Assembly (NCBI GenBank): GCA_003641745.1
Contig: QNAI01000006.1
Location: forward strand, 1-64,000
Source: Verrucomicrobiota bacterium
GTDB taxonomy: Bacteria; Verrucomicrobiota; Verrucomicrobiia; Opitutales; Opitutaceae
Direction of reading: 5' to 3'
DNA: 64,000 nucleotides
Shown: piece by piece, positions 4,399-43,018 of the stretch
Position numbering within the stretch: the first letter of the stretch is position 1
How the letters are laid out: every line of letters begins with the position of its first letter
Translations under genes and position numbers: made by a program
Notes under the pieces: model-generated
The model's input: the letters and a program-made list of their open reading frames with translations, nothing else
What the model was told of the DNA's origin: nothing
The model's database searches: none

Positions 4399-5388
4399 TC
4401 AGCCGGAGTATCCGTCCGGGTGGTCGCGATGCCACTTCCAGGCGGTTTCGACGATTGATTCAATATCGCTGAACTTCACTTTCCAACCGAGGTCCTGCTT
4501 CGCCTTGGTGGAATCCGCATAGAGCGACGGCGGATCGCCGGCGCGCCGAGCCCCCTCGACCTGCGGCACTTTTTTTCCGCTCACGACTTCGATCGCGTTG
4601 ATGATCTCCCGGACTGAGTACGGGCGACCTGTTCCCAGGTTGTAGAAGAGCTGCGTGCCCGGATCGCTCAGTTCCTCAAAAACGGCGATATGCGCCCGGC
4701 TGAGATCGTCGACATGGACGTAATCGCGCAGGCAGGTTCCGTCCGGAGTCGGGTAGTCGGTGCCGAATACGGTGAAGTCCGGCCGTTTTCCCAGGACCAC
4801 ATCGATGGCCAAGGGGATTATGTGGGTCTCCGGATCGTGGGCTTCGCCGATCGATCCGTCTTCGGCCGCGCCGGCCGCATTGAAGTAGCGGAAGGCGGCA
4901 AAGCTCAGGCCGGTTGCGCGGGCGATGTTCTTGAGGGCATTTTCCACGTCCAGTTTTGTCTGGCCGTAGGGATTGATCGGCTTCTGGGGAAGATCTTCGG
5001 TGATGGGGAGGGTTTCCGGAACGCCAAAGGTGGCGCAGGTGGATGAAAACACGAATTTCATGACCTTGTTCCGGATCATGGTCCGCAGGAGGTGGAGGGT
5101 CGCGACGCTGTTATTGAAGTAGTATTTCAGGGGATCCTCGACCGATTCGCCGACATAGGCAAAAGCGGCAAAGTGCATAACCAGATCGATCTTTTCCTTC
5201 CGGAGAATCGATCCGACCGTTTCCTCGTCCCCAAGATCAGCATCGTAGAAGGCGATTTCAGGAAGCAGGGCGGCCCGGTGCCCGAAGACAAGGTTGTCCA
5301 GGACCACAGGGCGGTGACCCGCGGCGGTCAGCTGTCGCACGCAATGACTTCCGATATAACCCGCGCCACCAACGACTAGAACGTTCAT
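4399..5388 (-). CDS. galE: UDP-glucose 4-epimerase
   Basis: The 329-residue protein is full length for GalE, an extended short-chain dehydrogenase that interconverts UDP-glucose and UDP-galactose with tightly bound NAD. It shows the N-terminal GGAGYIGS nucleotide-binding loop (7-14), the FSSTCATFG strand with the active-site Ser/Thr, and the catalytic Tyr141-x3-Lys145 pair (NPYGQTK). The end contains LGWKVKFSDIE, as in GalE. It is transcribed away from the KAS gene, across a 193-bp divergent region. It probably feeds exopolysaccharide or LPS synthesis. Confidence 0.95.
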   Translation of the reverse strand: MNVLVVGGAGYIGSHCVRQLTAAGHRPVVLDNLVFGHRAALLPEIAFYDADLGDEETVGSILRKEKIDLVMHFAAFAYVGESVEDPLKYYFNNSVATLHLLRTMIRNKVMKFVFSSTCATFGVPETLPITEDLPQKPINPYGQTKLDVENALKNIARATGLSFAAFRYFNAAGAAEDGSIGEAHDPETHIIPLAIDVVLGKRPDFTVFGTDYPTPDGTCLRDYVHVDDLSRAHIAVFEELSDPGTQLFYNLGTGRPYSVREIINAIEVVSGKKVPQVEGARRAGDPPSLYADSTKAKQDLGWKVKFSDIESIVETAWKWHRDHPDGYSG

Positions 5389-5581: not shown

Positions 5582-6817
5582 ATGGAATTGAGTAGAATTG
5601 TGATCACCGGCATCGGGCTGACCTCGCCGAATGGCGATTCTTTGGCCGAATACCGCCGGAATCTTCTGGATGGCATATCGGGCATTGAGTGGATTGACAG
5701 GCGTTACATGGGTCGGGTCCCGGCCGGAGTCTGCCATTTCGATCCTCTTAAGTACCAGAAGAAGAAGGCCCTCCGCATCGGTACGCGGGCGGGCAGTATT
5801 GCGATCTACTGCGCCCGGGAGGCCATTGCCGACAGCGGTCTCGACCTTGAGGCTCTGGACCGGTCGCGGATCGGGATCTATGTCGGAACGACAGAACACG
5901 GTAACGTGGAGACTGAGAACGAGATACACAATATCTCGCAATTCGGGTTCGACACCCGCTATTGGTCGCATCACCACAACCCCCGAACGGTGGCCAATAA
6001 CCCGGCCGGAGAGGTATCTGTCACCCTGAAGATCACCGGACCCGCCTACACCATCGGCGCGGCCTGTGCGGCCGGCAACTGCGGCCTGATCCAGGCGACC
6101 CAGATGCTGCAACTCGGCGAAGTGGATCTGGCCCTCGGGGGCGGCGTATCTGAAAGTATCCACACATTTGGCATTTTTGCCGGATTCAAGAGCCAGGGCG
6201 CGCTCGGTATGCATGAAGACCCCACCAAGGCCAGTCGGCCGTTTGACCGGGATCGCAACGGTATCGTGGTCAGCGAAGGAGGATGTCTCTACACGCTTGA
6301 GCGTCTGGAGGACGCCAAGGCCAGGGGAGCCAGAATCATGGGCGAAGTGGTTGGTCACCACATCAATTCCGATTCGACGGACTATGTGCTCCCCAATGCC
6401 GAGCGGCAGGCCGAGTGCATGGAAGCCGCCCTCAAGCGTGCCGGCCTGCAGCCGGGTGAGATCGACATTGTGAGCTCCCATGCCACGGCCACGCCGCAGG
6501 GCGACATACACGAATGCGAGGCCATCCGGCGGGTTTTCTCGGACTGCCCGGACACCTCTGTCAACAACACCAAGAGCTTCATCGGACATACCATGGGGGC
6601 GGCCGGTGCCCTCGAATTGGCCGGAAACCTGCCTGCCTTTGAGGACGGCCTGGTTCACCCGACCATCAACCTTGAAAACCTGGATCCAGAGTGCAATTTG
6701 CCCAACCTCGTGGTGGGTCGACCTAAAGCGGCAAAACGGGTTGACGCGATTCTCAATAACTCCTTTGGTATGCTCGGAATCAACTCAGCAGTCATTATCA
6801 AACGCTTTTCAGACTGA
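5582..6817 (+). CDS. Beta-ketoacyl-ACP synthase II-like condensing enzyme
   Basis: This 411-residue thiolase-fold enzyme is of the FabF type, which condenses an acyl chain with malonyl-ACP. The active-site Cys162 sits in GAACAAGN. The two histidines are His300 (SSHATATPQGD) and His336 (IGHTMGAAGA), and Lys331 lies in the NTKS motif, so the Cys-His-His set is complete. The surroundings of the Cys differ from housekeeping FabF (AACAAGN rather than the usual TACASG-like loop). The gene is clustered with an ACP and desaturase-like flavoproteins rather than with core fatty-acid genes, which points to a dedicated secondary pathway. It is followed after 17 bp by the ACP gene, so it is surely cotranscribed. 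Confidence 0.92.
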   Translation: MELSRIVITGIGLTSPNGDSLAEYRRNLLDGISGIEWIDRRYMGRVPAGVCHFDPLKYQKKKALRIGTRAGSIAIYCAREAIADSGLDLEALDRSRIGIYVGTTEHGNVETENEIHNISQFGFDTRYWSHHHNPRTVANNPAGEVSVTLKITGPAYTIGAACAAGNCGLIQATQMLQLGEVDLALGGGVSESIHTFGIFAGFKSQGALGMHEDPTKASRPFDRDRNGIVVSEGGCLYTLERLEDAKARGARIMGEVVGHHINSDSTDYVLPNAERQAECMEAALKRAGLQPGEIDIVSSHATATPQGDIHECEAIRRVFSDCPDTSVNNTKSFIGHTMGAAGALELAGNLPAFEDGLVHPTINLENLDPECNLPNLVVGRPKAAKRVDAILNNSFGMLGINSAVIIKRFSD

Positions 6818-6834
6818 AGAACGAACAGACCCGT

Positions 6835-7089
6835 ATGACGAAGGACGAATGTAAGAAGATAGTTATCGAGATCATCGCGGACATCGCTCCCGATGAAGAT
6901 CTCAGCGACGTCAAACCTGATGTGCGCCTGCGGGACCAGCTTGAGCTCGATTCAATGGATTTCCTCGATATCGTAATGGAGTTACGCAAGCGCTACCAGA
7001 TCGAGGTGCCTGAGGCGGACTATATCCAGTTGGCCTCCCTGGACAGCTGTGCCGAGTACCTCACGCCCAAATTCGACGCCCTGGTTTGA
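6835..7089 (+). CDS. Acyl carrier protein
   Basis: The 84-residue acidic helical protein carries the phosphopantetheine attachment motif L-E-L-D-S-M-D, with Ser40 as the attachment site. It probably carries the growing chain for the condensing enzyme directly upstream. It is not placed with fabD (24340-25245), so it is probably a pathway-specific carrier. Its sequence is somewhat divergent (RLRDQLELDS instead of the usual DLGADSLD loop), in line with specialised ACPs. The next gene begins 66 bp downstream. Confidence 0.93.
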   Translation: MTKDECKKIVIEIIADIAPDEDLSDVKPDVRLRDQLELDSMDFLDIVMELRKRYQIEVPEADYIQLASLDSCAEYLTPKFDALV

Positions 7090-7155: not shown

Positions 7156-8565
7156 ATGAGCAAGGTCGATGTCGCCATCATTGGATGTGGTATGTCCGGA
7201 CTCGCAGCGGGCATCCGTCTCGCGCACTTCGGACGGGATGTCTGCATCTTCGAGCGCCACAATGCTCCCGGCGGGTTGAACAGTTTCTACAGCCTTGGCG
7301 GCCGCAAATTCGACGTGGGCCTGCACGCCATGACGAATTTCGTGCGTCCGGGCGTTCGCGGGAGTCCGCTGGGCAAGTTGCTGCGACAGCTTCGTATTGA
7401 CCGTGATGAATTGGACCTGGCCGAGCAGCGTCGATCCCGTATTGCCTTTGGTGGAACAAATCTGCTTTTCAGTAACGATTTCGAGCTCTTTGAATCCCAG
7501 ATCGCGGATCGCTTTCCCGGGCAGATGGACGGTTTTCGTCGCCTGATCCGGACCGTCCGGGACCACGACGATACCAAACTGGAGCAGGAAGAGATCTCGG
7601 CCCGGCAGGTCGTCGGAACCCACCTGCAGGATCCGCTCCTGATAGACATGCTGCTCTGTCCGTTGATGTACTACGGTAGTGCCTCGGAACTGGACATGGA
7701 CTGGACGCAATTCGTGACCATGGCGAAGTCGATCTATCTCGAGGGATTCTGCCGACCATTCGACGGCGTGCGCGTGGTGATACGGACGCTGCTGAACCGC
7801 TATCGGCAGGCCGGGGGGCAGCGCCGGATGAAATGCGGGGTTCGCAGGATTGAGACGGGTGACGGGCGGGTTCGAAGGCTGCTGCTGGACAACGGCGAAG
7901 AGGTCGAAGCCAACCACGTGATCTCCTCCATCGGCCTGGCGGAAACCGGCAGGCTGCTCGATCCGCCCGGTGACAGTCCAGTCACCGACAAGCCCGGGCA
8001 ACTTAGTTTCATAGAAACCATGACCGTCTTCCGGGAGCCGACCGAGGTCCTGGGATGGGGCGCGGATACCATAGTCTTCATCAATCACGGAGAGCGGTTC
8101 GAGTATGCCAGACCCGACGATCTCGTGGATCCAAGGAGCGGGGTCATTTGCTTCCCCAACAACTTCCAGTATGGTGACCGGGTTCCGAGTGAAGGGGTCT
8201 TGCGGGTGACCGCGCTGGCCAATCCCGAGGGTTGGATGACCCTGCCTGAAGATACCTACCGGGCAGAGAAGGCCGAGTGGTTCAAACGGATCCAGGAAAG
8301 TGCGCAAAAGGTGCTGCCGGCGCCGGCATTGAATCCGGCCGGATCGAGCGTTGCGACCGATATGTTCACCCCGCGAACCATCCGCAAATTCACCGGGCAC
8401 ATCAACGGGGCCGTCTACGGTTCTCCGCAGAAGACCCGTGACGGGCGAACCGGTTATTCGAACCTCATCCTTTGCGGCACAGACCAAGGATACCTGGGCA
8501 TTGTCGGCGCCCTGCTCAGCGGCATATCCATGGCCAATCTGCACGTGCTCAAACCGCAGGTTTGA
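7156..8565 (+). CDS. CrtI/phytoene-desaturase-like FAD-dependent oxidoreductase (first copy)
   Basis: The 469-residue flavoprotein has an N-terminal Rossmann loop (G10-C-G12-M-S-G15), the acidic end of beta-2 (FERHNAPGG), and a C-terminal FAD-binding region (GRTGYSNLILCGTDQGYLG). This is the amine-oxidase/CrtI layout used for desaturation, saturation or isomerisation of long hydrophobic chains. No carotenoid genes (crtB, crtE) are nearby. The neighbours are KAS, ACP, FabZ and FabI, so an acyl-chain or polyene substrate is more likely than phytoene. That is an inference. The last 32 bp of the gene form the left arm and part of the right arm of a perfect hairpin. Confidence 0.82.
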   Translation: MSKVDVAIIGCGMSGLAAGIRLAHFGRDVCIFERHNAPGGLNSFYSLGGRKFDVGLHAMTNFVRPGVRGSPLGKLLRQLRIDRDELDLAEQRRSRIAFGGTNLLFSNDFELFESQIADRFPGQMDGFRRLIRTVRDHDDTKLEQEEISARQVVGTHLQDPLLIDMLLCPLMYYGSASELDMDWTQFVTMAKSIYLEGFCRPFDGVRVVIRTLLNRYRQAGGQRRMKCGVRRIETGDGRVRRLLLDNGEEVEANHVISSIGLAETGRLLDPPGDSPVTDKPGQLSFIETMTVFREPTEVLGWGADTIVFINHGERFEYARPDDLVDPRSGVICFPNNFQYGDRVPSEGVLRVTALANPEGWMTLPEDTYRAEKAEWFKRIQESAQKVLPAPALNPAGSSVATDMFTPRTIRKFTGHINGAVYGSPQKTRDGRTGYSNLILCGTDQGYLGIVGALLSGISMANLHVLKPQV

Positions 8566-8703: not shown

Positions 8704-10194
8704 TCAGGGTATCCTTACTGCAAAGTAGCCGGTTCTACCCCGGTCATAGATGTAGAACTTGTTGACGCCGCGATAGAGCAATTGTCTGGCCTGATCGAGG
8801 TCTGAGACCGGGCGATCGTTGATCTCGATCAGCACCATGCCTTCACGGAGGTACTGCCGAAGCGGTGATTCAGGGGACACGGAACTGATTGCCAGGCCGG
8901 TCAGTCCATCAGGCAGCCCATAGGTGGAACGAACGGCCTCCGAAAGCGGCGCCACCTCGACACCCTCAAGCAGAGTCCCGCCCGCATCGGACTCCTTCCC
9001 CTGGTCGAGGTCGGCGATCACCGCCGTCAGGGCAATGGGCTCTCCATCCCGCACTATATCAAAGACCAGTTCCGTGCCGGGAAGCGTCTGACCAAGCAGC
9101 AGACGGAACTCGTTGGCGTTCGGCATGGGCTTGCCGTTCACCTTCAGCACAATGTCTCCATGCCGGAGTTCGGCCTGGTCGGCCGGGCTGCCCGGTTCGA
9201 CTCGTTCGATCAGGACACCTTTGGTCGACGAAAGCCCAAATGCTTCGGCCAGGTCAGGGTTCAGATCCCCGAAACTGAAACCCAGCATGCCACGCCTGAC
9301 CTCCCCATGAGCCACCAATTGGGCCATGATGGTCACGATCAGGTTGCTGGGAATGGCGAATCCGATGCCGATGCTTCCGCCGGATTCGGACAGGATGGCG
9401 GAGTTGAGGCCGACCAGGCGGCCGTCGCTGTCGATAAGGGCACCGCCGGAATTGCCCGGGTTGATGGAGGCGTCCGTCTGGATGAAGCTCTCGTAACCTT
9501 CCTCGCCGTAAATACCCAATCGTCGCCGAGTCGCGGATACAATTCCCTGGGTCACGGTCAGGCCGACACCCAGCGGATTGCCGATCGCAAACACGATGTC
9601 GCCGACTTCGATCGTATCACTGTCGGAAATCTGAACCGTCGGGAGCCCGCTGACGTCGACCTTCAGGACGGCGACGTCGGTTTTCGGATCCCGACCGACA
9701 ATCCTGGCCGGGAGTTCACGGCCGTCATGAAGCTGGACCAGAATTTCATCGGCGGGACCACCGCGACCATCGCTGATCACATGGTTATTGGTGATGATGT
9801 AGCCGTCAGTCGTGACCACGACGCCGGACCCGATTCCTTGGGGCACGCGTCGTTCCTCGATGGTCGGATCCAGTCTTTCGGGCAGCGGCAGACCAAAGAA
9901 ACGCCGAAGCATTTCCTCCCTGGGCGAGATCCCCCTCCCTCCGCGCACAATTTTGACCACTCGGGCGGTATGGACGGAAATGACGGCCGGCGTAGCGCGT
10001 TTGAGAATATCCGAGTAGCTCGAAATTCTGGCCGGGTCATTTCGCTCGATCGATGCGTGGTCGATGGTGACCCGGAACTCGGGCTCCCGGTCCGGTTCCT
10101 CCCCACAGGCGACGGGACCCAGCAGGGCACCAGCGCTGACCAGGGCGACTCGGGAAAATCTTCTGTACATACTCTGACGGTTGGTTGTCATCAT
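8704..10194 (-). CDS. Trypsin-like serine protease, Do/HtrA family, with two PDZ domains
   Basis: The 496-residue protein is an envelope protease/chaperone of the DegP/DegQ type. The N terminus is hydrophobic and ends in GPVAC, possibly a lipobox with Cys30, otherwise a Sec signal. The triad is complete: His138 (TNNHVI), Asp173 (KTDVAVLK) and Ser249 (GNSGGAL). Two PDZ domains follow, roughly 295-385 and 400-490. It would degrade or refold damaged periplasmic proteins. It sits on the opposite strand between two blocks of a lipid-like cluster, divergent from the second CrtI-like gene with 103 bp between starts. Its role, if any, in that pathway is unknown. Confidence 0.93.
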   Translation of the reverse strand: MMTTNRQSMYRRFSRVALVSAGALLGPVACGEEPDREPEFRVTIDHASIERNDPARISSYSDILKRATPAVISVHTARVVKIVRGGRGISPREEMLRRFFGLPLPERLDPTIEERRVPQGIGSGVVVTTDGYIITNNHVISDGRGGPADEILVQLHDGRELPARIVGRDPKTDVAVLKVDVSGLPTVQISDSDTIEVGDIVFAIGNPLGVGLTVTQGIVSATRRRLGIYGEEGYESFIQTDASINPGNSGGALIDSDGRLVGLNSAILSESGGSIGIGFAIPSNLIVTIMAQLVAHGEVRRGMLGFSFGDLNPDLAEAFGLSSTKGVLIERVEPGSPADQAELRHGDIVLKVNGKPMPNANEFRLLLGQTLPGTELVFDIVRDGEPIALTAVIADLDQGKESDAGGTLLEGVEVAPLSEAVRSTYGLPDGLTGLAISSVSPESPLRQYLREGMVLIEINDRPVSDLDQARQLLYRGVNKFYIYDRGRTGYFAVRIP

Positions 10195-10297: not shown

Positions 10298-11746
10298 ATG
10301 GCAAGAGACTGGCTAAAAGGCGTGCGCGACGACTACGACGTTATTGTCGTGGGCAGTGGCCTGGCAGGCCTGACCTCAGCCAACTCCCTGGCAAAATGCG
10401 GACATTCCGTGCTCCTGCTGGAGCATCATTACCAATTCGGCGGCCTGGCCACCTGGTTTCGAAGGCCGGGTGGACACATTTTTGATATCTCACTGCACGG
10501 ATTCCCGATCGGGATGATCAAATCCTGCCGCAAATACTGGACGCGTGAGATCGCGGATTCGATCGTTCAGCTCAAGGGGATCCGATTCGTCAACCCGCAA
10601 TTTGAAATCGAAACCACCTTTGATCGTCAGGACTTTACTCGTCTGTTGATCGAAAAGTTCGGTATTTCGGCAGAGACGGTCGAAGCCTTCTTCACCCATT
10701 TGAGGGGCATGAACTTCTACGATGACGACAAGCGCACGACCCGCGAGCTGTTCGAGGAATTCTTCCCCGGTCGCGACGACGTCGTGCGATTGTTGATGGA
10801 GCCGATCGCCTATGCGAACGGGTCGACCCTGGACGATCCGGCCATCACCTACGGCATTGTGTTCTCCAATTTCATGAGCAAGGGGGTCTTCACCTTCCGG
10901 GGCGGGACAGACGTCCTGATCAAGAAAATGGTGGCCGAACTGCGTCAGAATGGAGCCGACCTGCGCCGATGCGCCCTGGTTGAGAGGATCCTGATCGACG
11001 AGGGTCCGGACGGAACAAGGAGGATCAGCGGGGTAATCGCGAACGGAAGACGGATCGGTTGCCGTGCGGTGATGTCGAATTCGGGCCTCCGCGGCACGGT
11101 CCTGAACCTGGCCGGTCGGGAGAATTTCGATCCGGCTTATGTAAAGTCGGTCGAAAATGTGCGCCTGAACTCGAGTTCATGCCAGGTCTACATCGGTTTG
11201 AAGCCGGGCGAATCATTCGAGCAGATCGGCGACCTGATATTCACTTCGGAGTCGGAGAAATTCTCAAGCCGGGAACTCGTCGGTCTGCATACCCGCAGCC
11301 GCACCTTTTCCATCTACTACCCGGAGATCCGACCGGGGAAAGGTCGCTACACCGTGGTCGCCTCCCTGAACGGTCGCTACGACGAGTGGAGCTCTCTGAA
11401 CGACGAAGAGTATGAACGGGAAAAGAAGCGAATGATCGAGGAAAGCCTCAATTCCCTGGAGCGCTTTATCCCCGGTATCCGTTCGAAAGTGGAGCATGTG
11501 GAAGCGGCAACTCCCCGAACCATCGAACACTATACGCGACACCAGACTTCATTCGGTACCAAGTTCGAGGGGCTCGGTTGCTCGATGGACCTTCCCAGGC
11601 AACTCCCGGGCCTCTTCCATGCGGGTTCGGTTGGCATCATCATGTCGGGCTGGCTCGGTTCTATGAATTATGGCGTGATCGTTTCGAACAAAGTCGACAG
11701 CTATATCACCAGCCTGCGCGAAACCTCAGGATCCGCTGCCTGCTGA
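10298..11746 (+). CDS. CrtI/phytoene-desaturase-like FAD-dependent oxidoreductase (second copy)
   Basis: The 482-residue flavoprotein has the same architecture as the gene at 7156: Rossmann loop G19-S-G21-L-A-G24, LEHHYQFGG at the end of beta-2, and a C-terminal region (LFHAGSVGI) that closes over FAD. Overall similarity between the two copies seems low outside the FAD motifs, so they probably catalyse different steps. It opens the second block of the cluster and is followed after 28 bp by fabZ. CrtI-like proteins paired with FabF, FabZ and ACP genes are known from the proposed ladderane clusters of anammox bacteria. Confidence 0.82.
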
Positions 11747-11774: not shown

Positions 11775-12233
11775 GTGGACGACGTCAAGAAATACATCCC
11801 GCACCGCCCCCCCTTTCTCTTTGTCGACGAGATCATTTCGGCAACCGAGGAGAGCCTGATCGCACAGCGCCGGATCCGGCCCGACGAGGATTTTTTTCAG
11901 GGACATTATCCCGGGAACCCAATCATGCCCGGCGTGCTGATCGCCGAGTCCGTTTTCCAAGCCGGTGCGATCCACCTTGTCAATACGCTGAGTGACGGCG
12001 CGGTGCCTCCAAACGCCGTTCCGGTCCTGGTTCGAATCAGCGACGCACGTTTCCGACAGGTCATTCGTCCGGGTGATGTCCTGACCATCGAGGTGCGCTT
12101 GAAAGAGAGGATGGGAAAATTCTTTTTCATGCACGGTCGCGTAACCAGCGAGGGCCGGCGCGTCATGACGGTCGACTTCGGCGTGGCCATGGAAGCCGGT
12201 GACGAGGAAGGGGCCTCCGGATCTCCAGCATGA
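11775..12233 (+). CDS. fabZ: 3-hydroxyacyl-ACP dehydratase, FabZ-like
   Basis: The 152-residue hot-dog-fold protein has the FabZ catalytic signature: His44 in [13 protein letters not shown] and Glu58 in VLIAES. It removes water from 3-hydroxyacyl-ACP to give trans-2-enoyl-ACP in the cytoplasm. It begins at GTG 11775 and overlaps the downstream fabI-like gene by 4 bp. No fabA, fabG or lpxA lies beside it, so this copy is probably dedicated to the local pathway. Confidence 0.92.
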
Positions 12234-13066
12234 ATTTCCTCGGACTCAAGGACAAGACCATCCTGGTCATGGGCACGGCCAATCGAAAGAGCGTCGCCTA
12301 CAGGGTTGCGGTGACGTTGGAGGAAGCCGGAGCGAAGGTTGTGCACAGTGTTCGTTCGGAGGCCCGGCGAGAGTCGACGGCCCGTCTGCTGGCGGACCGG
12401 CCGGTTTACATCTGTGACGTCGAGCGAACCGACGAGATCGAGCGACTGGCTCAGGACGTGGCGCGCGATCATGGTCAAATCGACGGCATCGTCCATTCCA
12501 TTGCATTCGCCAACTACGCTGACGGGTTCAAGCCCTTCCACGAAACCAGGCGGGAAGATTTCCTGCAGGCGACGGGTATTTCCTCCTTTTCGCTGGTGGA
12601 GATCGCCCGCGCCTTCAAGCCCCATCTGGCCCCAAAGGCGTCGGTTGTGGCCATAGGTATTTCGTCCGTGATCGTTACGGCCGAGAATTATGGATACATG
12701 TCACCGATCAAGGCGGCACTGGAGAGCACGGTTCGCTACCTGGCAAAGTCATTCAGCGCAGACTGCGAAGTGCGCTTCAATACCGTCAACCCGGCTCTGC
12801 TCAAAACCAGCGCGTCCGCCGGCATTCCCGGCTATCTCGAAAGTTACCTTTATGCCGAGAAGATGACTCTTCGCAAGCGGGCACTGGAAACGCAGGAGGT
12901 CGCGGACGTGGTCGCGTTTCTGCTCAGCGCGCGTTCGAGCGGAGTCAATGGTGCCGGGATCGTGGTCGACGCCGGGATGAGCCTGAACTACTTTGACCGG
13001 GAGCTGATCGAACTCGCCATGCGTCCCGAGAAAAAGGGGAATAAAGACGCAGACCGCCCGGCATGA
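12230..13066 (+). CDS. fabI: Enoyl-ACP reductase (NADH), FabI-like
   Basis: The 278-residue short-chain dehydrogenase is of the FabI type. The nucleotide-binding region reads [13 protein letters not shown], as in FabI. The catalytic pair Tyr154-x6-Lys161 has the FabI spacing rather than the Tyr-x3-Lys of ordinary SDRs. The expected reaction is reduction of trans-2-enoyl-ACP with NAD(P)H. The C-terminal 25 residues are more charged than usual. Both ends overlap neighbouring genes by 4 bp, so it is translationally coupled to fabZ and the OleA-like gene. Whether it also serves core fatty-acid synthesis cannot be told from this window. Confidence 0.88.
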
Positions 13067-14091
13067 AATTCCAGAACGTCGTCCTTGAATCCCTGGCTTA
13101 CGCGCAACCGCCCGAGGTGCTTTCCTCGGAGCAGTTGGAAGAACGTCTTCGCCCGCTCTATGAACGTCTGAAGCTCCCCTTTGGCCGCCTCGAATTGATG
13201 ACCGGAATCAAGGAACGGCGATTCTGGCCCTCCGACCACCGGCCATCTGCGGCCAGCGCCGAAGCCGGGCTGTCGGCCCTTGAGCGATCCGGCATCATGA
13301 GGGACCAGGTCGAGGTCCTGATCCATGCGAGTGTCTGTCGCGATATGCTCGAACCGGCCACCGCGGCGTTTGTCCACAAGGAACTCGGTCTCCGCGATGA
13401 TTGTCAGGTCTTCGACCTCTCGAATGCCTGCCTGGGATTTCTCAACAGCATGGTCCTGCTCGGTTCGATGATCGACAGTGGCCAGATCCGATGTGGCATG
13501 GTCACGGTGGGTGAAAACGGGCGGCCGCTGGTTGAGAAGACCCTGGCCGAGCTGCTCGAGAAACCACTGACCAGAAACGGGATCAAACCCTATTTTGCCA
13601 ACCTGACCATCGGTTCCGGCGCTTGTGCGGGGGTTCTATGTCATGAAGATCTGGCGCCCGGGGGGCACCGGCTCCTGGCCGGGGCGTGCCGAGCCGCGAC
13701 CCAACACAGCAATCTCTGCCTGGGCGACGCGTCTTCCGACGGCCTCGCCATGCAGACCGAGTCCGAACTGCTGCTTGATGCGGGAGTGGCTGTCGCCGCA
13801 GACACCTGGGAAGCCTTCAAACTGAATACCGACTGGGACGAACAGACACCCGACCGAATTGTCTGTCATCAGGTTGGCAGCGTCCATCGCCGCCGTCTTT
13901 ACGAGACCCTGAAACTGGATCCCAAACGCGACTTCTCCACCTTCGAAGCTTTCGGAAACACCGGATCCGCTGCATTGCCGGTCACGCTGGCGCGTGCAGT
14001 GGAGGAGGGTGCGATCAAGGTCGGAGATAGGGTGGCGCTCCTCGGAATCGGAAGCGGCATCAACTGTATGATGCTGGCCATGCAATGGTGA
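13063..14091 (+). CDS. oleA: OleA-type head-to-head acyl-condensing enzyme (KAS III fold)
   Basis: The 342-residue thiolase-superfamily protein resembles OleA more than FabH along its whole length. Cys123 (NACLGF) is the acylation site, with His269 (CHQVGS) and Asn299 (FGNTGSA). Glu97 in MLEPATA matches the glutamate that OleA uses to activate the second acyl chain and that FabH lacks. The positions agree with Xanthomonas OleA as I recall it (Cys143 and Glu117 in tagged numbering, offset 20). OleA joins two acyl-CoAs to a 2-alkyl-3-ketoacid. It overlaps fabI by 4 bp and the OleB-like gene by 7 bp. A divergent FabH is the alternative, but the Glu and the OleB neighbour argue against it. Confidence 0.85.
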
Positions 14092-14984
14092 TGGCCGACC
14101 GGACAATCAGAACACTCCCGGCATTCCTGCGCGCTCAATACCCGTTCGAGTCCCGCTTTCTGGATCTGGACGGCCACCGCCTCCATTATGTGGACGAAGG
14201 ATCCGGACCGGCGGTGCTCATGGTCCACGGAAACCCCACCTGGTCCTTCTTCTATCGGGACCTGATCAGGGAACTCAGCGCAACTCACAGGTGCATCGCA
14301 GTAGACCACCTTGGCTGCGGACTGTCGGACAAGCCGGCGGACCACACCTACAATCTGGCCTCGCATATCAAAAGCCTGCAGCGCCTGATCACCTCGCTGA
14401 ACCTGGAGTCGTTTGACCTGGTGGTGCATGACTGGGGAGGGCCGATCGGACTCGGAGCTGTCATGGAGGAACTTCACCGGGTAAACTCGGTGGTGATCAT
14501 GAACACGGCCGCGTTCCGATCCCCGTGGGTCCCATTGAGGATACGACTCTGTCGCGCACCGATGATCGGCACCCTCCTGGTCAGAGGACTCAATGGATTT
14601 TGTGGCCCCGCAATCCACATGGCAGTGAACCGGCGTCCACTTTCCTATGATGCCAGGCGCGGTTTTCTCTTTCCGTATCGAAGTTGGGCAGACCGGGTGG
14701 CGATCAGGGCGTTTATCGAGGATATCCCGGATCGGGAGCGCCATCCAAGCCATCCACTCCTGACCCGGATCGAAGAAAGCCTGACCGATCTGAACCAATC
14801 CAAGGTGCTGCTCGCTTGGGGCGGGGCGGACTTCTGCTTCCACCACGGGTTCCTGGCCCAATGGCAGGAAATTCTCCCGGATGCCCGGACCTTCCTCGTC
14901 CCGGATGCCGGCCACTATCTGCTCGAAGATGCCGGCGCGGAGATCATCCCGGAAATAAAAAGTTTCCTCCGGCAGACGCAATAA
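14085..14984 (+). CDS. oleB: OleB-like alpha/beta hydrolase (haloalkane-dehalogenase fold)
   Basis: The 299-residue protein has the dehalogenase-type alpha/beta hydrolase pattern. HGNPTWSF (48-55) forms the oxyanion region, Asp116 in VVHDWGGP is the nucleophile, and His277 in DAGHYLLED is the catalytic base. Asp249 is a candidate acid. OleB converts a cis-beta-lactone to an alkene and CO2 in long-chain olefin synthesis. Placement directly after the OleA-like gene (7-bp overlap) supports that over haloalkane dehalogenation. ATG 14085 or ATG 14091 may be the start. OleC and OleD homologues do not follow. The next gene is on the other strand. Confidence 0.78.
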   Translation: MVMADRTIRTLPAFLRAQYPFESRFLDLDGHRLHYVDEGSGPAVLMVHGNPTWSFFYRDLIRELSATHRCIAVDHLGCGLSDKPADHTYNLASHIKSLQRLITSLNLESFDLVVHDWGGPIGLGAVMEELHRVNSVVIMNTAAFRSPWVPLRIRLCRAPMIGTLLVRGLNGFCGPAIHMAVNRRPLSYDARRGFLFPYRSWADRVAIRAFIEDIPDRERHPSHPLLTRIEESLTDLNQSKVLLAWGGADFCFHHGFLAQWQEILPDARTFLVPDAGHYLLEDAGAEIIPEIKSFLRQTQ

Positions 14985-15132: not shown

Positions 15133-16671
15133 TCATGATTTTCCTCCGCTTCGGCGATCATGAAGGTCGGCCAGTTCATTGAGGTAGTCCGCGCTTTCGC
15201 GCCGCAGTTTCTCCAGCTGGTCGGAGCGGTAGCGCCAGGACCAGTTTCCGGATGCCCGGCCGGGCGTGTTGAATCGAGCTTCGGATCCAAGGTTCAGGAG
15301 ATCCTGAAGCGGGAGAACAGCCATCCGGCAGACTGATGCGTAGGCCGATCGTATGAAGTCCCAGGCAATCTCATCGCCGTCGACCCGAAAATAGCGTCGG
15401 ACGTGATCCTGAACTTCGTTCGTCTCCGAATCGTACCAGCCCCGTGAGGTGTCATTATCGTGCGTGCCGGGATAGAGGACCGTGTTCCGGGTGAGATTAT
15501 GGGGCAGGTAGAGATTGTCAGACCCGCCCCCGAACGCAAACTGGGTGACGGCCATGCCGGGAAGGCCGGCCTTTTCCCTGAGCTCAACCACCGAGGGGAA
15601 CAGGTCGCCCAGGTCCTCGGCGATAATCCTGGCGTCGGGGAAGTGCTTCCTGATCGACTTGAGAAAGGGGAGTCCCGGTCCCGGTATCCATTCTCCAGTG
15701 ACGGCTGTTTTCGCCTCTTCGGGAATCGACCAATAGGTGTCGAAACCGCGAAAGTGATCGAGACGGACCACGTTGAAGAGGTCGAAATTCGCCGCCAGGC
15801 GCCGTCGCCACCATGCATAGTCGTCGGCCTGCATGATTTTCCAGTCGTAGAGCGGGTTTCCCCATAATTGCCCGTCCGCAGAAAAATAGTCGGGCGGACA
15901 CCCGGCCCGCTCGGCCAATACCCGGCGCTTTTGATCGATCTTGAACAGGTGGGGATCGGCCCAGAGATCGGCTGAATCGGGAGCCACGAAAATCGGCATG
16001 TCTCCGATGATGTCGATTTTCCGGCGGGTGGCGTACGAATGGATCTCGCTCCACTGTCCGTAGAACAGGTATTGGTTGAACTGGTGGGCCTCGATCTCGA
16101 GCGCGAGCTTCCTGCGCAGGGGCGACTTCAGGGCGATGCGGTAGTCGGCACATCCCATGGGCCAGGAGAGAAACGACCCGCCGCCAAAGTGGTCCTTCAG
16201 CGCCTGGAAGCAGGCATAGGGTTCCAGCCAGTCCGAATGCCGATCCCGGAACCGATCGAAATCCCCGTAGGGAAGTTCGAGGGTGCGGTCGCGCCGGTAA
16301 GCCTCGAAGGCCTGGCGCAGGATGGGCCGTTTGATCTGGTAGATTCTGCCGAAATCGACGTGATCACTCGACGGGTGGAAGAGTGGGGCGAGACCGTCCT
16401 CGGCCAGCAGACCGGCATTGGCCAGGGCCTCGACGTCGATCAGGTAAGGATTTCCAGCGAAGGCTGAAAACGATTGGTAGGGCGAGTCACCGTAACCGGT
16501 GGGTCCCAGCGGGCAAATCTGCCAATAGCGCATCCCGGCTTCGTGCAGGAAATCAATGAACGTCCGGGCTTCCTGACCGAGGGTGCCGATGCCATAGTCA
16601 CCGGGAAAGGCAGTGGGATGCAGAAGCACGCCGGTCGAACGTTTCCGCAGCCAATTGAAAAGTGGTTTCAT
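15133..16671 (-). CDS. malQ: 4-alpha-glucanotransferase (amylomaltase)
   Basis: The 512-residue protein is typical GH77 MalQ length. It transfers maltooligosaccharide segments between glucans in the cytoplasm. Family features include the N-terminal SGYGDSPYQSFSAFAGNPY-type stretch, VRLDHFRGFDTYW with the nucleophilic Asp, IIAEDLGD with the acid/base Glu, and GTHDNDT with the third acidic residue. It lies downstream of the membrane glycosyltransferase gene on the same strand, 213 bp away and separated by a repeat, so it may have its own promoter. It is convergent with the OleB-like gene across about 150 bp in which I see no clear terminator. Confidence 0.95.
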   Translation of the reverse strand: MKPLFNWLRKRSTGVLLHPTAFPGDYGIGTLGQEARTFIDFLHEAGMRYWQICPLGPTGYGDSPYQSFSAFAGNPYLIDVEALANAGLLAEDGLAPLFHPSSDHVDFGRIYQIKRPILRQAFEAYRRDRTLELPYGDFDRFRDRHSDWLEPYACFQALKDHFGGGSFLSWPMGCADYRIALKSPLRRKLALEIEAHQFNQYLFYGQWSEIHSYATRRKIDIIGDMPIFVAPDSADLWADPHLFKIDQKRRVLAERAGCPPDYFSADGQLWGNPLYDWKIMQADDYAWWRRRLAANFDLFNVVRLDHFRGFDTYWSIPEEAKTAVTGEWIPGPGLPFLKSIRKHFPDARIIAEDLGDLFPSVVELREKAGLPGMAVTQFAFGGGSDNLYLPHNLTRNTVLYPGTHDNDTSRGWYDSETNEVQDHVRRYFRVDGDEIAWDFIRSAYASVCRMAVLPLQDLLNLGSEARFNTPGRASGNWSWRYRSDQLEKLRRESADYLNELADLHDRRSGGKS

Positions 16672-18591: not shown

Positions 18592-18741
18592 CCCAAGACC
18601 ACAGGTGATGCTGGTGCGAGCCAAAAAGGGAGTCATCCCTTCGCAGAGGGAGCCGGTCGAACGTTTTGGGTTCTCAAACCCTTGGGCTGCCCCCACAATC
18701 GGGATGAACTCTTTAAACCGGCAATCAACCCTGGCTCTCGA

Positions 18742-20850
18742 ATGACCGCGAAGAACGAATCTCCTCTGCCGCAGGCACCGATCCAGCCCCGGGATGATCT
18801 CCGGATGATGCTGCGAAACCACGTCGTTCGGCGCTCGCTCAAGTGCATGCGAGCGGCGGATGCCCGACGACAACGCGCGATCGAATCGGGCCGCCTGGAG
18901 GATTATCGGAGCCGGATCCGGGCGGCGGTTCTGAATTCCCACGGTGTCCTGCCAACCGGTCCGGACACGGAACGACCCCGCGCCATAGGAGTGAGCACCC
19001 ATGAGAAGGAGGGTTATCGGATTGAGAACGTGCTCTTCGAGTCGTTCCCGGGATGGGAAATCAATGCCACCGTCTATGTGCCGCTCGATTTCAGGCCGCC
19101 TTTCAGAGCCGTGGTGGTCCCGGTCGGTCATTCCGGCAAACAGTTCAGCAACTACCAGCTCCCGTGCCAGTTCTTCGCCCGGTCCGGCTTCCTTACCATC
19201 ACATTTGATCCACCCGGGCAGGCAGGCGAGAAACAGCACGGGAACGATCATTTCCGAGACGGCGTCCGCTGTTACCTGGTGGGCGAGACTTCAAGTCGGT
19301 ATTTCGTGGCGGATGCACTCCGGTGTATCGACTATTTGGAGACTCGAACCGATGTCGATCTCGATTCGGGAGTGGCCATGACCGGGGTCTCGGGCGGCGG
19401 GACCACCACCATCTTTGCCGGTCTGCTCGATCCGCGGATCAGGGTCACCGGGCCTTCCTGCTGCCTGAGCCCGCTCGAAGACCTGGCCATCCGGCAATGC
19501 TACTCGAGTTGCCCGGAAGGCCGCATGTGGCGCCGCTATGCCGACGGTATCGACTACGTGGACCTGATATGTGCCGGCGCGCCCAATCCGGTTCTCGTCA
19601 TGGCAGGGAAGGGCGACGAGGTGTTCCGGATGGAGGACACCGAAGCCCTGGTCGGGACAGCGAGCGATTTCTATCGGGCCAGTGGCTGGCAGGATCGTTT
19701 CGAATTCTTCGCCGACGACAGTGGCCATGCCTATACGCTGACCCAGGCGAGGCGCTTTGTCCGATTTCTGGACCGGTGGTTCGGAGGGAAAGACACGGCC
19801 GCCGACCACATACGACCCGATCTTCCGAGCGAAAGCTTCCGGATGAATCCCGAGTCCGAGCTGCAGTGCCGCCCGAGTCAGGCGGTGAACATGATGACCT
19901 TGAGCCGGGACCGTGCCATTGACCTTCGAGTCGAACGGAAGGCACGGGCAGGCGATCCGGGAGATGCCGCCGCGAAACTCTGCGGGTGGACTCCGGGGTA
20001 TTGGGACCAGGTCCGGGTCGAAGTCGGCGGTCCATTTCCGGCCTGGGTGCACGATTTCCGTCAAGTCCGGCTCCTGACGGAAAAAGATATTGAAATATTC
20101 GGATCGCTACTCACGCCAATCGCCCGGACAGGCGCTCCAACCGTGCTTCATTTCGATGATCAGGGCAGAAACCGCCTTCTCGAGGCCGGAGGTTTACTTG
20201 GGCGGGTCATTCGATTCGTCGATCGCGAAAATCCGATCTTCGCCTGTTTCTCGGTGGATCTGCGAGGGTGGGGCGACTCACGACCGTGCCTCTTGCCCTT
20301 TGAAATCCCCAGTTGGGGCTCAACCAACCGTTTTCTTGCCTATTCGACCGCCGCCCTGGGCGACGGGTCCATGCATATGCGGGTTCGCGACGGCCTGGCG
20401 GCCCTGGCGTTTCTGCGGGCACATCCGTTGACCAGCGAATCGCCCGTGATCGTATCGGGATGCGGATTGGGGGGGGTCGTGGCCTCTCATGTGGCTGCGA
20501 TTGATCGGGAGCTCCGAGGCGTCGTAATTTGGGACTGCCTGCGGTCGTTCGAGGACCTGCTCAATGCAGATGACAGCCAGTGGTCGCCTGAGGTCTTCAT
20601 GCCGCAGACCCTCAATCACTACGATCTTCCGGAATTGCTGGGAGCGGTCACTTGCCCGGTTCATTGCATCAATCCACTCGACGCCATGAAGAGGCCTTTC
20701 GCAGACCCTGATCTCCGGGAACTGCAAGAATGGATTGGCAGTCACGTACGGATCGAGAATGGGGATGAGGAAACGGTCTGCGCAGTTTTGCAGGAACTGC
20801 TGGAAGCTGCGGACCTAAATAACAGACAACCCGCATCATCTAGATGGTGA
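18742..20850 (+). CDS. Large two-lobed alpha/beta hydrolase, acetyl-xylan-esterase-like
   Basis: The 702-residue protein has no signal peptide. The first half resembles acetyl esterase/dipeptidyl-peptidase-like hydrolases: GHSGKQF near 127, nucleophile elbow GVSGGG with Ser217, and DSGHAYT with His329. The second half (about 430-690) looks like another alpha/beta hydrolase domain, with DLRGWGDS and an elbow G-C-G-L-G-G whose central residue is Cys574 instead of Ser. It may be an esterase acting on acetylated sugars, with a second lobe that is degenerate or Cys-dependent. The start at 18742 avoids most of the divergent glycosyltransferase promoter region. Confidence 0.75.
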   Translation: MTAKNESPLPQAPIQPRDDLRMMLRNHVVRRSLKCMRAADARRQRAIESGRLEDYRSRIRAAVLNSHGVLPTGPDTERPRAIGVSTHEKEGYRIENVLFESFPGWEINATVYVPLDFRPPFRAVVVPVGHSGKQFSNYQLPCQFFARSGFLTITFDPPGQAGEKQHGNDHFRDGVRCYLVGETSSRYFVADALRCIDYLETRTDVDLDSGVAMTGVSGGGTTTIFAGLLDPRIRVTGPSCCLSPLEDLAIRQCYSSCPEGRMWRRYADGIDYVDLICAGAPNPVLVMAGKGDEVFRMEDTEALVGTASDFYRASGWQDRFEFFADDSGHAYTLTQARRFVRFLDRWFGGKDTAADHIRPDLPSESFRMNPESELQCRPSQAVNMMTLSRDRAIDLRVERKARAGDPGDAAAKLCGWTPGYWDQVRVEVGGPFPAWVHDFRQVRLLTEKDIEIFGSLLTPIARTGAPTVLHFDDQGRNRLLEAGGLLGRVIRFVDRENPIFACFSVDLRGWGDSRPCLLPFEIPSWGSTNRFLAYSTAALGDGSMHMRVRDGLAALAFLRAHPLTSESPVIVSGCGLGGVVASHVAAIDRELRGVVIWDCLRSFEDLLNADDSQWSPEVFMPQTLNHYDLPELLGAVTCPVHCINPLDAMKRPFADPDLRELQEWIGSHVRIENGDEETVCAVLQELLEAADLNNRQPASSRW

Positions 20851-39439: not shown

Positions 39440-42400
39440 ATGAAGACCCGAGTCCTGACCCTCCTGGCGTCCGTTATCTCTGTCACTGCCCTGCAGGCGC
39501 AGACTTACTACGAGAACGACTTCGAGTCGGACACGGTGGGGGCACAGCCTGCCGGCGACATCACTTTCTCACCTGGAAGCAATACGGCGGAAAACGGGGC
39601 GGTGGTCATCGACAGCGCCTCGACGCCGGCCAATCCACTTACCGGACAGTCTCTCTACGTGTATGACCTCAATGGTGACGGCGCCAGTGGCGTGTCCACC
39701 CATATGCGTTTCCCGTTCAACGGGGGGACCAACGTCTCGAATGTCCGGGTCGATTTTGATTTCCAGCGCGGGTACGCTGCGGCGTCGGTTGATGACACGG
39801 ACACCCGGGTTCATTTCGCCGTGGCCCGGGCCGGTGACAAATTGAACAACTCCGATTTCCGTCCCTTCGAGATCAGGATCCTGAACAACGGGAACCTGGT
39901 TGTTAATTCGGTCGCGGGTTCCGTAACCGAGGGCGCTTACCTGACCGACGCGCCCAATCATCTCAGTGTGCTTATCAATTCACATGATACCAACCCGGTC
40001 GACTACGACGATTCCGAACTGGGGACGGGTACCCTGGCGCCGAATAACCTCCATGTCTTCCTGAACAATACCCTGGTGGGCGAGTACACCTTCCACCAGA
40101 CCCCCGATCCCGCCAATGCGCCCCAGATCGACTTTTACGCCGAGGACAACGATCTCGGTCAATTCGCGTTCTACCAGGACAGCAAGCGCCAGGGAGGACT
40201 GGTCATCGACAACCTGGTGATCAAAAGCCTGGTCGCTGAGATCGGAGGCCTGCCTGCTCCAACCGAACTTTCCGCCACGGCGGATTCCTCGATCCAAATC
40301 AGCCTGACTTGGACCGACAACGCCGATGCCGAAGATGCCTACGTGGTTGAGAGAAAATCGGGATCCGAAGATTTCGCCGTTGTGGCCGAACTCGACGCCG
40401 ATGCTGAGGCCTACACCGACGGAGGCGTGCTTCCGGAGATCACCTACACCTACCGGGTCAAGGCGACCACAAGTGCGGTCGAATCGGACCCTTCCAATGA
40501 AGCGGAAGCGACCACGCCCGAACAGGTCGAACCCCTGATCATCGGGACCGATACCCAGGAGCTTGTAGTAGCCGGCAACACCACGTTCGCGTCGGTTACA
40601 TCCCTTGGCCGTGAACCGCTGACTTACCAGTGGTACAACGGTCAATCCGGCGATACCTCCGATCCGATCGGGGGAGGCACCGGTTCGTCCGTGACGATAA
40701 CAACCACCAACCAGGATATGTCGGTCTGGGTAAGGGTCACCAATTCAAGTGGTTCCTCCGACAGTGACTCGATCGCAATCAAGGTCCACGAACCGATTAC
40801 AACGGTCGTGAACAACGCAGCGGAACTGGAAGAGGCAATTTCAACCGCCCTGCTTGGAGACACCATACTCCTCAAGAATGGGACCTGGGAAAATCTCGTG
40901 ATCCAGTTCACTGCTGAGGGCAACGAAGCCGGTAAGATCACCCTGGGCGCCGAGACAGCGGGCAGAGTCAGCCTGACCGGCGAATCCCGGATCGAAATCG
41001 GCGGCCGACACCTGGTGGTCAGAGACCTCAGTTTTGAAGGCGCCTATTCCGGAAATGACGACGAAGTCATCCAATTCCGCCAAGGCAGCGGCAATCTCGC
41101 CCACAACTGCCGGGTGACCAATATCAGTATGGTCGACTATGTCCCCGAGACCGGCGCCAAGACCGTCTGGGTATCCCTCTACGGAACCAACAACCGGGTC
41201 GACCACTGCTATTTCAAGGGGCATGACGTGCTCGGTGTCACCGTGGTCGTTTGGCTGGGCGACAGCCCGAACGACCACCGTATCGACCACAACCACTTCG
41301 CCGACCGGATGAGCGGCGGCGGTGAGAATGGCTGGGAAACGATTCGGATCGGAACGAGTGAGAACTCGATGAGCAATTCGCGCACCACGGTGGACTACAA
41401 TCTCTTCACCCGGGTCGACGGCGAGATCGAGATCATCTCCAATAAATCCGGGGAGAACATCTATCGATACAATGCGTTCGTGGAATCCCAGGGAACCCTC
41501 ACCCTCAGGCACGGCAACCGCTGTACCGTTGATTCCAATACGTTCATCGGAAGGAACCGCGCGGAGACCGGGGGTATTCGGGTGATCGGTGAGGATCATC
41601 TCATCATCAACAACTACTTCCACGGGACCACGGCGCGTGACGGCGCGGCCATCACGGTATACGCCGGAGTGCCCAACTCGCCCCTTAACGAATACTTCGC
41701 CGCTCACGGTGCGACCATCGCATTCAACACATTTGTGGACAACCAGGGCGCCCTGATCGAGATCGCCGCCGGTTACGGGGAAAGAGACCGCACCGTGCTT
41801 CCGATGAATATCACGGTGGCCAATAACCTGATGGCACAGACCGAATCGGGAGAGACCTCATATGTCATCGGTGAAAATCCGACCGACCAGACCTGGAAGA
41901 CGAACCTGATCCACAACGGCGAGGCCGGAATCGAAGTTGAAGGCGGTTTTCTGATCGGCGACCCGAAACTCGCAGTCAACCTGATCCGCCAGCTGATCCT
42001 CCCGGGTGTTGACGGAGCGGTCGCGGATGCGGCCACCACCGGGATCCTGACCCTGGCCGCAGATATCGAAGGACTCGGACGCGGTTCGACGCCCGATATT
42101 GGTTCTCATGAAGTCACGTCAACCGGTGCGCCGACCCAGGTCGGACCGGTGACCGCGGTCGATACCGGCCCCTCCTATCTCGGTCCCCAGCGCGACCCCA
42201 ATGTGCCGAACCTGCGCCTGATCAACAACTCCACCCGTGCCATTTCAGACATCGGAGAAGCCCTGATGATCAACGGTTTTGTGATCGGCGGAGATAGTCC
42301 CAAGTCCGTTCTTGTGCGGGCGGTGGGTCCCGGCCTGGCTCTCTACAGCATAACCGACCCGATGCCCCAACCGGTATTGAAGCTGTTTGATTCCGACCAG

Positions 42401-43018
42401 AACGAAATCGCCATGAACACAGGTTGGCAGACCGGACCCGAGGCGGACCTGATCGAAGCATCCAATCTGGTGGGGGCATTTCCTCTGCAGGGTGGTTCGC
42501 TCGATTCGGCCCTTCTCATCGGGCTTCCTGCGGGTCCGTACACCGCGCAGGTGACACCGGCTGAAGGAACAGTAGGGACCGTTCTGGTCGAAGTCTACGA
42601 TATCACCCAGGGCAGCGGGACGATGACAAACCAATCGTCACGTGGATTTGTCGGCGACGGGCAGGAAGTCCTCATCACCGGATTTGTGGTTGAGGGAACC
42701 GCCCCTCGACAGGTGCTCGTCCGCGGAGCCGGGCCCGCCCTGACCGACTTGGGAGTGACCACCGCAATCGCTGATCCCACCCTCGCAATCTTCGACCAGG
42801 AAAGTGGGGAGATCGCGGAGAACGACAACTGGTCGGACAACTCCAATGCCTCCGAGATCAAAACGACCGCCGTAGAGGTGGGAGCGTTCCCGTTCGCAGA
42901 CGGATCGGCCGATGCCGCCATTCTCATGACGCTGGAACCGGGGCCCTATACGGCCCGCATTTCCGGTGTGAGTGGCGGAACCGGCACGACATTGGTGGAG
43001 GTTTACCTGGTGGATTGA
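39440..43018 (+). CDS. Secreted PL6-type polysaccharide lyase with FN3-like and duplicated C-terminal modules
   Basis: The 1192-residue protein has a Sec signal peptide (1-20). An N-terminal beta-sandwich lies at about 21-265, an FN3-like domain at about 272-360, and an Ig-like domain at about 365-450. A right-handed beta-helix (about 455-890) is of the PL6 (chondroitinase B/alginate lyase) type. Catalytic Lys669 (SNKS) and Arg690 (LTLRHG) are in place, and Glu662, Glu664 and Asn668 are candidate Ca ligands. Two C-terminal modules of about 130 residues (926-1055 and 1063-1192) share GFV(I/V)xG, VLVRAxGP, GAFP and GPYTA. The substrate is probably a uronic-acid polymer. It is preceded by its own promoter. 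Confidence 0.87.
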   Translation: MKTRVLTLLASVISVTALQAQTYYENDFESDTVGAQPAGDITFSPGSNTAENGAVVIDSASTPANPLTGQSLYVYDLNGDGASGVSTHMRFPFNGGTNVSNVRVDFDFQRGYAAASVDDTDTRVHFAVARAGDKLNNSDFRPFEIRILNNGNLVVNSVAGSVTEGAYLTDAPNHLSVLINSHDTNPVDYDDSELGTGTLAPNNLHVFLNNTLVGEYTFHQTPDPANAPQIDFYAEDNDLGQFAFYQDSKRQGGLVIDNLVIKSLVAEIGGLPAPTELSATADSSIQISLTWTDNADAEDAYVVERKSGSEDFAVVAELDADAEAYTDGGVLPEITYTYRVKATTSAVESDPSNEAEATTPEQVEPLIIGTDTQELVVAGNTTFASVTSLGREPLTYQWYNGQSGDTSDPIGGGTGSSVTITTTNQDMSVWVRVTNSSGSSDSDSIAIKVHEPITTVVNNAAELEEAISTALLGDTILLKNGTWENLVIQFTAEGNEAGKITLGAETAGRVSLTGESRIEIGGRHLVVRDLSFEGAYSGNDDEVIQFRQGSGNLAHNCRVTNISMVDYVPETGAKTVWVSLYGTNNRVDHCYFKGHDVLGVTVVVWLGDSPNDHRIDHNHFADRMSGGGENGWETIRIGTSENSMSNSRTTVDYNLFTRVDGEIEIISNKSGENIYRYNAFVESQGTLTLRHGNRCTVDSNTFIGRNRAETGGIRVIGEDHLIINNYFHGTTARDGAAITVYAGVPNSPLNEYFAAHGATIAFNTFVDNQGALIEIAAGYGERDRTVLPMNITVANNLMAQTESGETSYVIGENPTDQTWKTNLIHNGEAGIEVEGGFLIGDPKLAVNLIRQLILPGVDGAVADAATTGILTLAADIEGLGRGSTPDIGSHEVTSTGAPTQVGPVTAVDTGPSYLGPQRDPNVPNLRLINNSTRAISDIGEALMINGFVIGGDSPKSVLVRAVGPGLALYSITDPMPQPVLKLFDSDQNEIAMNTGWQTGPEADLIEASNLVGAFPLQGGSLDSALLIGLPAGPYTAQVTPAEGTVGTVLVEVYDITQGSGTMTNQSSRGFVGDGQEVLITGFVVEGTAPRQVLVRGAGPALTDLGVTTAIADPTLAIFDQESGEIAENDNWSDNSNASEIKTTAVEVGAFPFADGSADAAILMTLEPGPYTARISGVSGGTGTTLVEVYLVD

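Follow-up and report, generated by a model that had tools for sequence, protein, structure and literature searches.

Olefin synthesis by OleABCD is described from Xanthomonas, Shewanella and Micrococcus, and the four genes usually form one cluster (PMC7158056). Surveys of the pathway have set conditions on gene neighbourhood: one accepted an OleA only with ole neighbours within 5 kb (PMC7158056), and another reserved its high-confidence set for cases with two or more flanking genes (PMC7064751). Among the Verrucomicrobiota, an oleABCD set called one operon has already been reported in freshwater Opitutae (PMC5673642), and the lineages found to carry olefin genes in an Arctic lake include Opitutaceae (PMC10176705). 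In Shewanella and Photobacterium a Pfa synthase is linked to oleABCD, and OleA is reported to take chains from the Pfa synthase ACP (PMC6463001). In anammox bacteria and in Desulfotalea psychrophila, which produces C31:8 and C31:9 hydrocarbons, additional FabF, ACP, FabZ and phytoene-desaturase-like genes occur clustered together (PMC2649909, PMC4790861).

The locus described here shares with the OleABCD systems all four enzymes, as judged by profile, motif or homology. Unlike the usual single cluster, it is one of two loci, oleA-oleB and oleC-oleD, that lie far apart. It shares both pathway and bacterial group with the freshwater Opitutae; here, however, oleA-oleB sit with fab genes instead. 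It differs from known oleABCD in this split arrangement and in an order-wide oleA-oleB-fab operon, the latter a modest residue of interest. No earlier report of the operon was found in the literature searched, mainly papers outside subscription.

Materials and methods

The source genome (G000) comprises 4.31 Mb in 307 contigs and is 83% complete with 6.09% contamination. The window, meaning the whole stretch of 64 kb that was analysed, lies on its contig C6. Genes were surveyed in 57 genomes of the order (the source genome plus relatives from the same family and order), with OleC and OleD counted at E <= 1e-40. Two sets of loci were used for gene order: 40 ole loci of the order, each with up to 20 kb around oleA-oleB, and loci in named records, 44 of which have at least 9 kb of upstream sequence usable for the upstream genes. 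The nearest named genomes belong to the Opitutaceae and other Opitutales (Verrucomicrobiota), and the host is a verrucomicrobium near the Opitutaceae. A planctomycete host, suggested by the likeness of the gene set to ladderane-type clusters, was rejected in view of these named relatives.

Results

A preliminary description of the window placed OleA and OleB homologues at 13063-14984. These coordinates proved exact, and profile, structure and motif all support the assignment. The 342-residue OleA scores 458.8 bits against the NCBIfam model NF006720 (cut-off 285) and aligns over its full length with the solved structure 3row (E 1.7e-68), which we take to be Xanthomonas campestris OleA. The Cys-His-Asn triad and the glutamate are present (Glu97, Cys123, His269 and Asn299), and residues 97-124 match the pattern EPxx[AS]x(14,18)DxxNACL, applied to OleA in an earlier survey (PMC7158056). 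By profile cut-off and catalytic residues the protein is an OleA, predicted to condense two long acyl chains.

The adjoining oleB is presumed, from its homology, to encode a beta-lactone decarboxylase. The protein retains the catalytic Asp116 (in HDW) and His277. It shows 41% identity to its counterpart in the canonical oleABCD of one relative (L115, genome G028) and has the HDW and AGH..LEDAGAE motifs in common with it. Its NCBIfam matches are dehalogenase models, below cut-off, and the set contains no OleB-specific model. Directly downstream of oleA, oleB is found in 72/74 named loci. The next gene lies on the minus strand, as the preliminary description had said of the gene following the OleB-like one.

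Upstream of oleA the window encodes a set of fatty-acid and CrtI-like enzymes (Table 1). Overlaps of 4 bp (fabZ-fabI), 4 bp (fabI-oleA) and 7 bp (oleA-oleB) suggest that fabZ-fabI-oleA-oleB form one translationally coupled operon. This order is kept in 37 of the 40 loci of the order and in most named loci, with fabI directly upstream of oleA in 64/72 of the latter. The best NCBIfam models for the FabI-like protein are FabI models, but the scores are below cut-off. The operon contains no dedicated ketoreductase.

The genes further upstream are less constant. Among the 44 named loci with 9 kb or more of upstream sequence, Crt2 precedes fabZ in 36, the ketosynthase (KS) is present in 28 (one of them, L204, with only 36% identity), and Crt1 and the ACP are each present in 27. 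The KS has Cys-His-His catalytic motifs at about 161, 300 and 336 and is 65-76% identical in relatives; it is distinct from the housekeeping FabF (G000:C9:52688-53905), to which it is 35% identical. The ACP is 80-89% identical in relatives where found. An HtrA-like protease gene between Crt1 and Crt2 was seen in none of the ole loci examined in relatives and is probably not part of the module. In other groups of the phylum, Crt2-like oxidoreductases (53-59% identical) are encoded with no ole or fab genes beside them (L100, L109 and similar loci), and these copies rule out Crt2 as an exclusive marker of the module.

Table 1. Genes of the two ole loci in the source genome, with the support for each assignment.
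Feature	Contig	Position	Strand	Assignment and support
KS	C6 (window)	5582-6817	+	FabF-like ketosynthase; TIGR03150 312 bits, below cut-off of 493.75
ACP	C6 (window)	6835-7089	+	Acyl carrier protein (84 aa; the listed ORF is longer); sequence reading, PF00550 40.9 bits
Crt1	C6 (window)	7156-8565	+	Second CrtI-like FAD oxidoreductase; PF01593 72.6 bits
HtrA-like	C6 (window)	8704-10194	-	Protease; sequence reading
Crt2	C6 (window)	10298-11746	+	CrtI/CrtD/CrtISO-like FAD oxidoreductase; PF01593; TIGR02733 101.8 bits, below cut-off
fabZ	C6 (window)	11775-12233	+	3-hydroxyacyl-ACP dehydratase; NF000582 114.6 bits, cut-off 113
fabI	C6 (window)	12230-13066	+	FabI-like enoyl-ACP reductase; PF13561 194.7 bits; Yx6K at 154
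oleA	C6 (window)	13063-14091	+	Head-to-head (non-decarboxylative Claisen) condensing thiolase; NF006720, 3row, motifs
oleB	C6 (window)	14085-14984	+	Alpha/beta hydrolase, haloalkane-dehalogenase type, 299 aa
ORF	C6 (window)	15133-16671	-	4-alpha-glucanotransferase-like; name from sequence reading
oleD	C4	16430-17467	-	3Beta_HSD gene; NF042422 best model
oleC	C4	17467-19152	-	AMP-binding gene; NF006754

Elsewhere in the window, 18682-20850 encodes a 722-residue protein with an acetyl-xylan-esterase-like alpha/beta hydrolase region, the second half of which is also alpha/beta hydrolase-like. A 1192-residue protein with a chondroitinase B domain (39440-43018) and, 10 kb beyond it, a sulfatase (52987-54360) suggest the use of sulfated polysaccharides.

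According to the preliminary description, the 64 kb hold neither an AMP-ligase nor an OleD-type dehydrogenase, and whole-genome domain searches uphold this. No AMP-binding domain was detected on contig C6, and the sole 3Beta_HSD match there (24 bits) falls inside a GalE-like gene at 4399-5388, so that neither oleC nor oleD lies in the 64 kb. The description had considered that OleC and OleD might lie elsewhere, and held that finding them in the full genome would make the pathway an ordinary one. That search located both genes, side by side with a 4 bp overlap, on contig C4 of the same genome, and OleC and OleD are also present in nearly all relatives.

OleC scores 624.1 bits against NF006754 (cut-off 478), the next best models being two for olefin beta-lactone synthetases, and by this curated profile cut-off it is a member of the family. 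Two stricter models, for the beta-lactone synthetases of Xanthomonas and Shewanella, give 490.8 and 451.4 bits, below their cut-offs of 900 and 850. For OleD the 2-alkyl-3-oxoalkanoate reductase model NF042422 is clearly the best (380.7 bits, below the cut-off of 580), followed by NF042423 with 333.8 bits; the best unrelated model gives 135.7. The canonical OleC of G028 also falls under the strict equivalog cut-offs, as do OleC and OleD of a contiguous set described below (L211), whose OleD behaves like the C4 protein (371.8 bits).

The division into two loci is the rule in the order. OleC is present in 53 and OleD in 51 of the 57 genomes, and the two are adjacent in 38 of the 51 genomes having both. 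None of the 40 loci of the order contains oleC or oleD within up to 20 kb of oleA-oleB; the 'OleD' matches in these loci are 23-26% identical, lie on the other strand and stand beside the KS, the place of the GalE-like epimerase in the window. The four genes of the source genome lack the adjacency of an oleABCD cluster, as C6 carries oleA-oleB and C4 carries oleC-oleD. Seven relatives have oleA and oleC on a single contig, separated by 26 kb to 3.2 Mb. The records Opitutia Tous-C4FEB and Tous-C1TDCM, probably genomes of the freshwater study (PMC5673642), have oleA-oleB beside fab genes, with neither oleC nor oleD within 10 kb; oleC lies on separate contigs there. Cultured relatives that show the arrangement include Cephaloticoccus primus CAG34, strain IMCC26134 and strain DG1235.

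Four near-complete genomes (G040, G042, G043 and G051) lack OleA, OleC, OleD, FabI and Crt2. The special KS is missing too, as their ketosynthases are only 31-35% identical to that of the window. The two loci are linked by this pattern of being present or absent as a set; the shared ancestry of the four may be part of the cause. A Fisher value of 7e-6 was obtained for 40 versus 4 genomes, which ignores shared ancestry and is not taken as a probability. Genome G053 has neither OleA nor FabI, and its Crt2-FabZ lies at a contig end (L118).

A single run of fabZ-fabI-oleA-oleB-oleC-oleD is found on contig L211 (labelled Planctomycetota bacterium nwagbin3), where OleA, OleC and OleD match the same models as the Opitutales proteins. 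A block divided in Opitutales is thus found in one piece elsewhere. Within the survey, G028 has, besides the split set, a Pfa-type synthase together with a contiguous oleABCD of canonical form on its own contig C4 (L115, L116). PfaA scores above cut-off only in G028, on the same contig as this second oleA-oleB-oleC-oleD, and a long PKS gene directly precedes the canonical oleA.

Discussion

The oleC and oleD genes occur elsewhere in the genome; the pathway is therefore complete and ordinary, and the window very probably holds the oleA-oleB half of a head-to-head olefin pathway, with the oleC-oleD half on another contig. Its steps are known from other species and are assigned here by family membership. 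OleA would condense two fatty-acyl thioesters to a 2-alkyl-3-keto acid, which OleD would reduce; OleC would then close the beta-lactone, from which OleB would remove CO2 to leave a long-chain olefin.

As to the source of the acyl chains, we lean, without great confidence, towards the fab, KS, ACP and Crt genes being a supply line that provides OleA with dedicated acyl-ACP. In this view KS-ACP-FabZ-FabI, perhaps with the CrtI-like enzymes, would act as a secondary type II fatty-acid system and hand its chains to OleA. By analogy, such a line would be comparable to the Pfa synthase beside the canonical oleABCD of G028, and it resembles the Pfa systems linked to oleABCD in Shewanella and Photobacterium (PMC6463001) as an apparently dedicated chain-building system encoded near oleA. 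The Pfa systems, however, are type I synthases, whereas the window encodes a type II set with separate KS, ACP, FabZ and FabI. A Pfa synthase is rejected as chain supplier in the source genome, where PfaA (TIGR02813) has no match at E 1e-100.

There is a real, if lesser, possibility that OleABCD is ordinary in this respect also, with OleA drawing on the general acyl-CoA or acyl-ACP pool and the fab and crt genes being conserved neighbours from lipid metabolism that make a separate product. The olefins of Xanthomonas and Stenotrophomonas derive from the core FAS (PMC6463001). The linkage to oleA is not constant, since KS-ACP-Crt1 and Crt2 lie away from it in some genomes and Crt2 stands alone in other groups of the phylum; these observations count against a supply role. 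On the other hand, fabZ and fabI belong to the overlapping run with oleA and accompany it throughout the order, KS, Crt2 and FabI are missing together with the ole genes, and the oleABCD of L211 is also preceded by fabZ-fabI.

A more specific form of the supply line, in which KS-ACP-Crt-FabZ-FabI would be a type II, Pfa-independent machine feeding polyunsaturated acyl-ACP to OleA, we regard as rather unlikely. The clusters of Desulfotalea and the anammox bacteria likewise bring together extra FabF, ACP, FabZ and CrtI-like genes, a likeness of gene content. Those clusters contain radical SAM genes, whereas there is none among the genes between 5582 and 14984, all of which are assigned, and the region does not qualify as a ladderane/PUHC-type FASII cluster. 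Were the proposal true, most Opitutales would make polyunsaturated long-chain hydrocarbons by an undescribed route related to the one suspected in Desulfotalea.

The preliminary description had also raised the options that the pathway ends in a ketone or that the OleB-like hydrolase has another role, and both are very improbable. OleA alone yields ketones in other species (PMC6463001), and oleC and oleD are not beside oleA in the order. Against this, both genes are in the genome and co-occur with oleA, leaving the ketone option unsupported; the identity to OleB of a canonical oleABCD speaks in the same way against another role for the hydrolase, and in another lineage (L211) all four genes follow fabZ-fabI without interruption.

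That contig C4 is itself a contaminant, with oleC and oleD lacking from the genome, is extremely improbable: the bin has the contamination given above and a foreign-looking partial copy on C170, but the tetranucleotide composition of C4 agrees with that of the window (r 0.97) and four single-contig relatives (G003, G004, G013 and G020) carry both halves. The C170 copy is a second, partial oleC with oleD (G000:C170:3203-7774, L052), 72-73% identical to the C4 copies and adjoined, as they are, by a RarD-like transporter gene. Its deviating composition (r 0.855 versus 0.936-0.958 for window pieces of equal size) suggests that it probably comes from a relative that contaminates the bin.

With the two halves brought together, the apparent gap in the olefin pathway is removed. 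Surveys that demand ole neighbours of OleA may undercount producers with a split arrangement, as in this order. The oleA-fab operon, for its part, offers a concrete candidate for supplying precursors independently of Pfa.
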